Shown piece by piece: positions 15,327 to 15,852 of a stretch of DNA of 51,607 nucleotides. The translations under genes were made by a program, and so were the position numbers. The stretch covers positions 1 through 51,607 of the forward strand of contig WRIZ01000010.1 in the NCBI GenBank assembly GCA_009782475.1, written 5' to 3'. The stretch's first letter is position 1. Each line of letters starts with the position of its first letter. The notes under the pieces were generated by a model. That model ran no database searches and was not told where the DNA came from. It saw nothing but the letters and a program-made list of their open reading frames with translations. Origin of the DNA: Oscillospiraceae bacterium. Lineage in GTDB: Bacteria > Bacillota > Clostridia > Oscillospirales > UBA929.

Positions 15327-15382
15327 TTTACCCATTCCTTTCAGTTCGCGTCATGCGTAACGCAATCATTAAGATAAACAAA

Positions 15383-15404
15383 GGAGCGGAAAGCTATGCG
15401 CTCC
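15383..15404 (-). terminator. Probable terminator of the zinc-ribbon gene
   Basis: GGAGCG and CGCTCC enclose 10 bases. On the minus strand the stem is followed by CTTTGTTTATC, a moderate T-rich tail. It lies 20 bases downstream of the zinc-ribbon gene. Confidence 0.5.
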
Positions 15405-15424
15405 CGCCCCCCGTTTGACATTAT

Positions 15425-15703
15425 TTAGCCGTTTTCCCTCATGCGGGCGAAGCAATCGCTGCAGTAAACCGGACGATCGGTTTTGGGCTCGAAAGGAACT
15501 TTGGCTTCGCCTCCGCAGGAAGCGCAAACAGCGGCAAAGTATTCTCTCGGAGCGCGGGACGCGTTTTTGCGGTTGTCGCGGCAGTTCTTGCAGCGTTGCG
15601 GCTCATTGAGGAATCCGCGTTCGTTGTAGAACTCTTGCTCGCCTGCGGTAAAGGTAAACTCCTCGCCGCATTCCTTGCACGTCAGGGTCTTGTCTTCGTA
15701 CAT
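15425..15703 (-). CDS. Zinc-ribbon domain protein
   Basis: This 92-residue protein carries two treble-clef or ribbon motifs: CKECGEEF...CKNCRD in the first half and CASCGG...CSDCFARM in the second, eight Cys in four pairs. The first half (FTFTAGEQEFYNERGF, NEPQRCKNCR) is a widespread family in Firmicutes and Chloroflexi of unknown function. ATG 15703 follows AGAGGGA by 6 bases. A consensus promoter and a 114-base leader with strong hairpins precede it, so expression may be controlled in the leader. Confidence 0.85.
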   Translation of the reverse strand: MYEDKTLTCKECGEEFTFTAGEQEFYNERGFLNEPQRCKNCRDNRKNASRAPREYFAAVCASCGGEAKVPFEPKTDRPVYCSDCFARMRENG

Positions 15704-15817
15704 TGTTTTCCCTCTTTCTGTGCCCGGCGGCAACTTGCCGCATCGATAGTCCGGGGTAGAGCCCGCTCTACGTTGGGGTGTGGCGCACAGGGCATAATTG
15801 TTCCGCTTTCACGGACA
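15704..15817 (-). ncRNA. Structured 5' leader of the zinc-ribbon gene (candidate RNA regulator)
   Basis: Read on the minus strand from the predicted start near 15817, the leader contains the hairpin GTAGAG-CGGG-CTCTAC and then GCGGC-AAGTT-GCCGC. An outer pairing of TGTGC with GCACA closes around both, and the ribosome site follows directly. The size and nested stems resemble a regulatory RNA rather than plain leader sequence. I do not match it to a known riboswitch or thermometer class. Confidence 0.45.
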
Positions 15818-15823
15818 TGCTCT

Positions 15824-15852
15824 ATTATATGGAATCAATTTTAGGTTGTCAA
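15824..15852 (-). promoter_or_regulatory. Consensus sigma-A promoter of the zinc-ribbon gene
   Basis: TTGACA (15847-15852) and TATAAT (15824-15829) match the consensus at all 12 positions, with 17-base spacing, on the minus strand. The promoter lies between the end of glmM and the structured leader. High basal transcription is expected. Confidence 0.88.

Follow-up and report, generated by a model that had tools for sequence, protein, structure and literature searches.

In Escherichia coli the operator of thrS, an mRNA leader close upstream of the ribosome site, mimics tRNA, and its autoregulatory logic is known: what it copies is the anticodon arm of the tRNA belonging to the encoded synthetase. 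In T-box leaders control is also tied to tRNA, and the tRNA-like domain of tmRNA provides a case of tRNA-body mimicry without an anticodon. The raiA RNA (ModT), a structured RNA of other Clostridia, works in trans in C. difficile, and when it is deleted 75 of 90 tRNA loci go up while 18 of 40 sigma-H genes go down (PMC11706538). Here we report that the mRNA of a zinc-ribbon gene in Oscillospirales and other Clostridia carries a tRNA-like structure (TLS) directly before the ribosome site, and we compare it with the leader of the orthologue in the window (the whole stretch of 51,607 nt that was analysed), whose closest named relatives are Oscillospiraceae metagenome-assembled genomes.

In the window, leader and zinc-ribbon gene stand together behind their own promoter, between a phosphoglucomutase-family gene upstream (presumably glmM-like) and a DUF1858 gene downstream. 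An earlier note on this DNA, made from the sequence alone, had described a perfect sigma-A promoter, a 114-base leader running straight into the ribosome site and an eight-Cys zinc-ribbon product, and all of this holds. Both promoter hexamers on the minus strand are at consensus, as they are (12/12) upstream of the orthologue in the relatives L061, L062, L063 and L116; the leader measures ~114 nt and ends in AAAGAGGG, the last base of which lies 7 nt before the ATG; and the protein, with 8 Cys by our count, matches PF13451 zf_Tbcl (81.8 bits, cut-off 24), PF23477 zf_Tbcl_2 (66.6 bits, cut-off 27) and TIGR04272 (NCBIfam CxxC-x17-CxxC; 66.8 bits, cut-off 36). Foldseek returned no match for the protein at E 0.001 or better, the best VIA-align hit (Z 3.4, residues 5-52) was uninformative, a sequence search of the PDB found no close relative (unrelated zinc fingers and paxillin at E >=0.011), and a literature search on the zf_Tbcl names found nothing relevant to this family. 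A short open frame of ~16 codons (15818-15768, minus strand), with its ATG at the expected transcription start 15818, probably occurs by chance.

The hairpins of the window leader had been taken for strong structure, which folding does not bear out: the minimum free energy (MFE) of -37.1 kcal/mol is no better than that of shuffled sequence (mean -33.1 kcal/mol, z -1.21), and 23 of 200 shuffles fold as well. The two hairpins within an outer UGUGC/GCACA stem that the earlier note had drawn do appear in the MFE fold, as a 5' hairpin, CUGUGC/GCACAG and inner hairpins, but the outer stem is not conserved in the nearest relative, L063, where GCACA is replaced by GCAAU and the MFE fold closes with UGCCC/GGGCA instead. 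The latter stem also closes the fold of L061. The window holds both stems, and the energy model pairs CUGUGC/GCACAG with a probability of 0.59-0.85 versus about 0.1 for UGCCC/GGGCA. The exact UGCCC/GGGCA stem occurs in 9 of the 15 leaders examined and in 4 of 5 within the window's genus (L116 of this genus lacks it), while shuffling produced it in none of 300 window shuffles and in <=1.3% of shuffles for any leader. Leader comparison therefore favours UGCCC/GGGCA over CUGUGC/GCACAG as the stem of the window.

Rfam, with its riboswitch and thermosensor classes, recorded no family at the gathering threshold over the window, which agrees with the proposal that the leader lies outside the familiar riboswitch classes; a below-threshold snoRNA match near the leader was at chance level. 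ARAGORN called 0 tRNA genes in the window leader, the Rfam tRNA model matched nothing there, and the raiA RNA model (RF03072) had no match in the window or in its genome. Nothing was found in favour of a zinc-, redox- or temperature-responsive leader, a suggestion that thus remains unsupported.

Features of the zinc-ribbon locus in the window (positions are those of the whole stretch)
Feature	Position	Strand	Basis or remark
Promoter TTGACA-17-TATAAT	15852..15824	minus	TTGACA 15852-15847, TATAAT 15829-15824; 12/12 consensus matches
5' hairpin of leader	15799..15817	minus	MFE fold; also folds in L063
Closing stem UGCCC (15794-15790)/GGGCA (15725-15721), putative remodelled tRNA-like element	15721..15794	minus	Leader comparison
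Rival stem CUGUGC (15790-15785)/GCACAG (15723-15718)	15718..15790	minus	Energy model preference
Hairpin GCGGCA-AGU-UGCCGC	15727..15741	minus	MFE folds of window and L063; adjoins 3' strand of closing stem
Ribosome site AAAGAGGG	15710..15717	minus	Read from sequence
Zinc-ribbon gene	15425..15703	minus	ATG at 15703; 92 aa + stop; 8 Cys; zf_Tbcl and zf_Tbcl_2 (TIGR04272)
Terminator-like hairpin 3' of gene	15381..15412	minus	Consensus scan; 4 such sites vs 3.1 expected by chance

The TLS spans 58-93 nt shortly upstream of the start codon of zinc-ribbon orthologues in Oscillospirales and eight other Clostridia families. It is composed of acceptor, D and T arms and of an anticodon arm that is shrunken and variable, an example reading UGCCC-AUG-UAGCUUAA..AGAGCG..(short arm)..AGGU-GUCGG-UGCAAAU-CCGUC-CACGGGCA. 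Many relatives have a sigma-70-family gene, which we take to be sigH, upstream of the zinc-ribbon gene (domains tested in three loci), and in many the TLS sequence stands between the two; in one locus (L350) a YacP-type NYN gene accompanies the sigma-70-family gene upstream of the TLS. L070, L075, L088, L116 and many other Oscillospiraceae loci share a further recurrent hairpin, GGCG..CAG..CUG..CGCA and then AAUA, just after the sigma-factor gene; it precedes the TLS or the ribosome site and persists in loci that have no TLS.

A covariance model built from five TLS (R1) matched 22 of 50 sources. The 97 TLS that were collected by means of R1 served to train a second model (R2), so that R2 alignments are biased towards the R1 structure. 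In the structure-aligned set of 97, whose alignment was fitted to the structure, 90.1% of pair cells are paired and 18 of 21 pairs show two-sided changes, amounting to 242 two-sided cells; shuffling yields 83 (sd 7) such cells, and sliding the 3' partners yields no more than 50. RNAalifold, run on this alignment with its bias to the fitted structure, recovered the four helices, in which 12 of 15 pairs carry compensatory changes. Taken singly, three TLS gave MFE folds no better than those of shuffles. The earlier note had proposed a covariance model of orthologue leaders as a check and a structured leader outside the named riboswitch classes as the expectation. The gene family does have a covarying shared structure of this kind, but the conserved fold is tRNA-like, the stem that had been named is either wrong or limited to the window's lineage, and the window leader fails the model.

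Contacts typical of tRNA are maintained across the 97 sequences: U8-A14 in 91, A15-U48 in 73 and U54-A58 in all 97, which also keep C61. By contrast, the anticodon arm measures 5-26 nt (commonest 11) and never the normal 17, and the D-loop GG occurs in 13/97. Position -1 pairs with 73, as U-A in 76/97. The Rfam tRNA model, which was not trained on TLS, matched one of 12 loci in a first test (37.8 bits) and the TLS of 15 of 20 loci in a second set, 11 of them at or above the cut-off, whereas ARAGORN called no TLS in the loci that it was given.

When R1 was run on 394 Oscillospirales genomes, true tRNAs were also matched, more weakly. From at least about 150 R1 matches we inspected the 30 best loci and 60 further ones, mostly the next best by score, passing over places already included and weaker matches of tRNA length. 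Of these 90 inspected matches, to which the count refers rather than to all matches, 88 stand upstream of the zinc-ribbon gene: 29 of the 30 best (the other lies at a contig end) and 59 of the 60 further regions (one of them assigned by eye, at a contig end), the last being a tRNA-Ile. The distance from TLS end to ATG is 23-45 nt (median 31, n=58). By hand tally, the TLS is present in 18 of the 26 Oscillospirales families met (f1-f26), leaving out f5 with only a weak R1 match of 19.6 bits, and in eight families outside the order. The latter derive from eight matches of a class search and from 12 of 75 upstream regions, taken outside Oscillospirales as one or a few per family from 194 genomes with a match. 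In one leader (L160, G025) apparently only the T arm and the 3' half of the acceptor are left of the TLS, and a genome with further zinc-ribbon paralogues (L157, G024 C1:2384256-2384576) has one whose leader is without a TLS. In several families a tRNA-Gly gene lies directly upstream of the TLS. A tRNA-Gly-like gene between the sigma-factor gene and the TLS or zinc-ribbon start was seen in L261, L262, L269, L274, L276, L278, L280, L296, L327, L330 and L331, called as tRNA-Gly(ccc) by ARAGORN in the first three and read from R2 matches in the others.

How does the window leader relate to this element? R1 has no match in the window, and against R2 the leader reaches 2.5 bits with filters off and fails, as do the leaders of relatives in genera g1, g2 and g4. 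Of the TLS it keeps only the terminal stem; the hairpin GCGGCA-AGU-UGCCGC sits in the place of the T arm but is without the T-loop sequence. On the other hand, genera g3 (L025) and g5 (L013, L015) of the window's family carry a full TLS at 46-54 bits (R1). Because two genera of the same family still possess the complete element, we consider it probable, from place, gene and terminal stem, that the window leader is a remodelled TLS descendant in which the acceptor-type closing stem and the location have been kept. It is unlikely that the TLS is simply gone from this lineage, with a leader that is ordinary or independently evolved and UGCCC/GGGCA as a leftover: such a loss would fit the 2.5 bits, a fold no better than shuffles and the lack of the exact stem in L116, but it accords poorly with the recurrence of this stem well beyond chance within and outside the genus and with its closing the folds of both L063 and L061.

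On the basis that the TLS is strictly linked to one gene, lies a short distance from the ribosome site and has a related leader behind the gene's own promoter, we argue for an action in cis. Our joint proposal, which is tentative and which we hold at somewhat less than even confidence, is that the TLS is a cis-acting control element recognised as a tRNA body and that the window leader is its remodelled descendant. The reader of the TLS would most likely be the encoded zinc-ribbon protein itself, or else another factor that binds the tRNA body. When free, this reader could sit on the leader and hinder ribosome entry, and when occupied by tRNA or the ribosome it would allow translation of the zinc-ribbon mRNA to proceed. 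Autoregulation of this kind predicts that tRNA, or a ribosomal tRNA site, is a ligand of the zinc-ribbon protein, a prediction that the slightly acidic pI of the protein (5.5) and the fold searches neither help nor exclude. Pairing of the Shine-Dalgarno (SD) sequence (mean probability 0.56) gave no clear sequestration. A switch between D arm and SD was considered since the conserved AGCUUAA shows partial complementarity to the UUAAGCGAGG that certain ribosome sites contain, yet in 58 leaders this motif pairs with sequence beyond the TLS at a mean probability of 0.03, and this candidate was rejected.

The TLS could instead be a tRNA-type processing signal cut by RNase P and/or RNase Z, which would release the zinc-ribbon mRNA from the upstream transcript of the sigma-factor gene (and tRNA-Gly), with a defined 5' end close before the ribosome site. 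Both enzymes read the acceptor and T arms, which are the best-kept parts of the TLS while the anticodon arm is lost, and the gene order is suitable, with the zinc-ribbon gene often downstream of a sigma-70-family gene and tRNA-Gly directly before the TLS in several families. We nevertheless judge this quite unlikely. In the window and in L061, L062, L063 and L116 a separate promoter stands immediately upstream of the leader, which leaves nothing for processing to separate; the pairing of -1 with 73 should hinder cutting at +1; no CCA follows the TLS; and the D arm is strictly kept as well.

The slot upstream of the zinc-ribbon gene can also be held by the raiA RNA. Of 20 other upstream regions, 13 gave an Rfam match to it, 4 of these scoring above the cut-off; each of the 13 is truncated at the 5' end by the limit of the stretch taken. 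Among whole genomes Rfam detected it in 78 of 391, in at least 28 of which (hand tally) it ends 31-121 nt before the zinc-ribbon gene. This search, whose 78 finds serve as positive control, detected it in none of 295 Oscillospirales genomes; similarly, none was found in 20 TLS genomes outside Oscillospirales, and none of the 75 regions surveyed holds both RNAs. In L348 and L354 the order is raiA RNA, zinc ribbon and hibernation factor (S30AE). Loci of other Clostridia in which the raiA RNA was seen directly before the zinc-ribbon gene are L348, L354, L346, L292-L295, L313, L319-L322, L325, L326, L341 and L344. These distributions, and the action of ModT in trans with a rise of tRNA levels on its loss (PMC11706538), would fit a TLS that is excised and works in trans as a small RNA, as a stand-in for the raiA RNA. 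We regard this as improbable, since all inspected TLS stay with the zinc-ribbon gene while most genomes with the raiA RNA have it elsewhere, the mutual exclusion may reflect only shared ancestry, and the two RNAs have no demonstrated structure in common.

That the TLS is a decaying, functionless tRNA pseudogene, as its tRNA-Gly neighbours and the resemblance of its halves most of all to tRNA-Thr(GGU) in 4 of the 7 TLS scored (another being tied three ways) might suggest, appears highly implausible and is disfavoured by the covariation, with pairing maintained through all those two-sided changes in 97 sequences and the element kept in most of the Oscillospirales families met. An origin from tRNA-Gly, considered because tRNA-Gly genes adjoin the TLS, gained no support: half-by-half scores favoured tRNA-Thr(GGU) in 4/7, tRNA-Phe in 2 and a three-way tie in 1.

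Our literature search, which covered leaders resembling tRNA, pseudogenes, novel classes of RNA and cleavage by RNase P, found no paper describing the TLS; the neighbourhood of raiA RNA and zinc ribbon may have been noticed earlier. With a confidence somewhat short of even, we suggest that the TLS represents an unreported RNA class, an anticodon-less tRNA body in zinc-ribbon mRNA leaders of Clostridia that occupies the raiA RNA slot, with a protein tied to tRNA, ribosome hibernation and the sigma-H growth transition and with the window leader as an eroded form. If this is true, leaders that mimic tRNA gain a class modelled on its body and not on its anticodon, and a widespread uncharacterised zinc-ribbon family acquires a testable function, namely binding of tRNA or of a ribosomal tRNA site. 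The puzzling raiA RNA would also share its slot with another RNA, the TLS, and because loss of the former raises tRNA levels in C. difficile (PMC11706538), the TLS offers a new way into that question.

Among known systems, the raiA RNA (RF03072) resembles the TLS by location, since in other Clostridia it too is a structured RNA immediately upstream of the zinc-ribbon gene, but it has about 209 positions, a different fold and its own Rfam family, and in C. difficile it acts in trans (PMC11706538). By structure, the TLS shares with tRNA (RF00005) the cloverleaf with acceptor, D and T arms and the U8-A14, R15-Y48 and U54-A58 contacts; it differs in an anticodon arm that is not the usual 5 pairs and 7-nt loop, in the lack of CCA, in the scarcity of the D-loop GG, in its location 23-45 nt before an ATG and in escaping ARAGORN. 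The thrS leader is similar in imitating tRNA just before the ribosome site, but the TLS is without an anticodon and its mRNA encodes an uncharacterised zinc ribbon. Unlike the tRNA-like domain of tmRNA, the TLS possesses a complete D stem, and it is known here only within an mRNA leader. Finally, T-box leaders bind tRNA, whereas the TLS imitates it.
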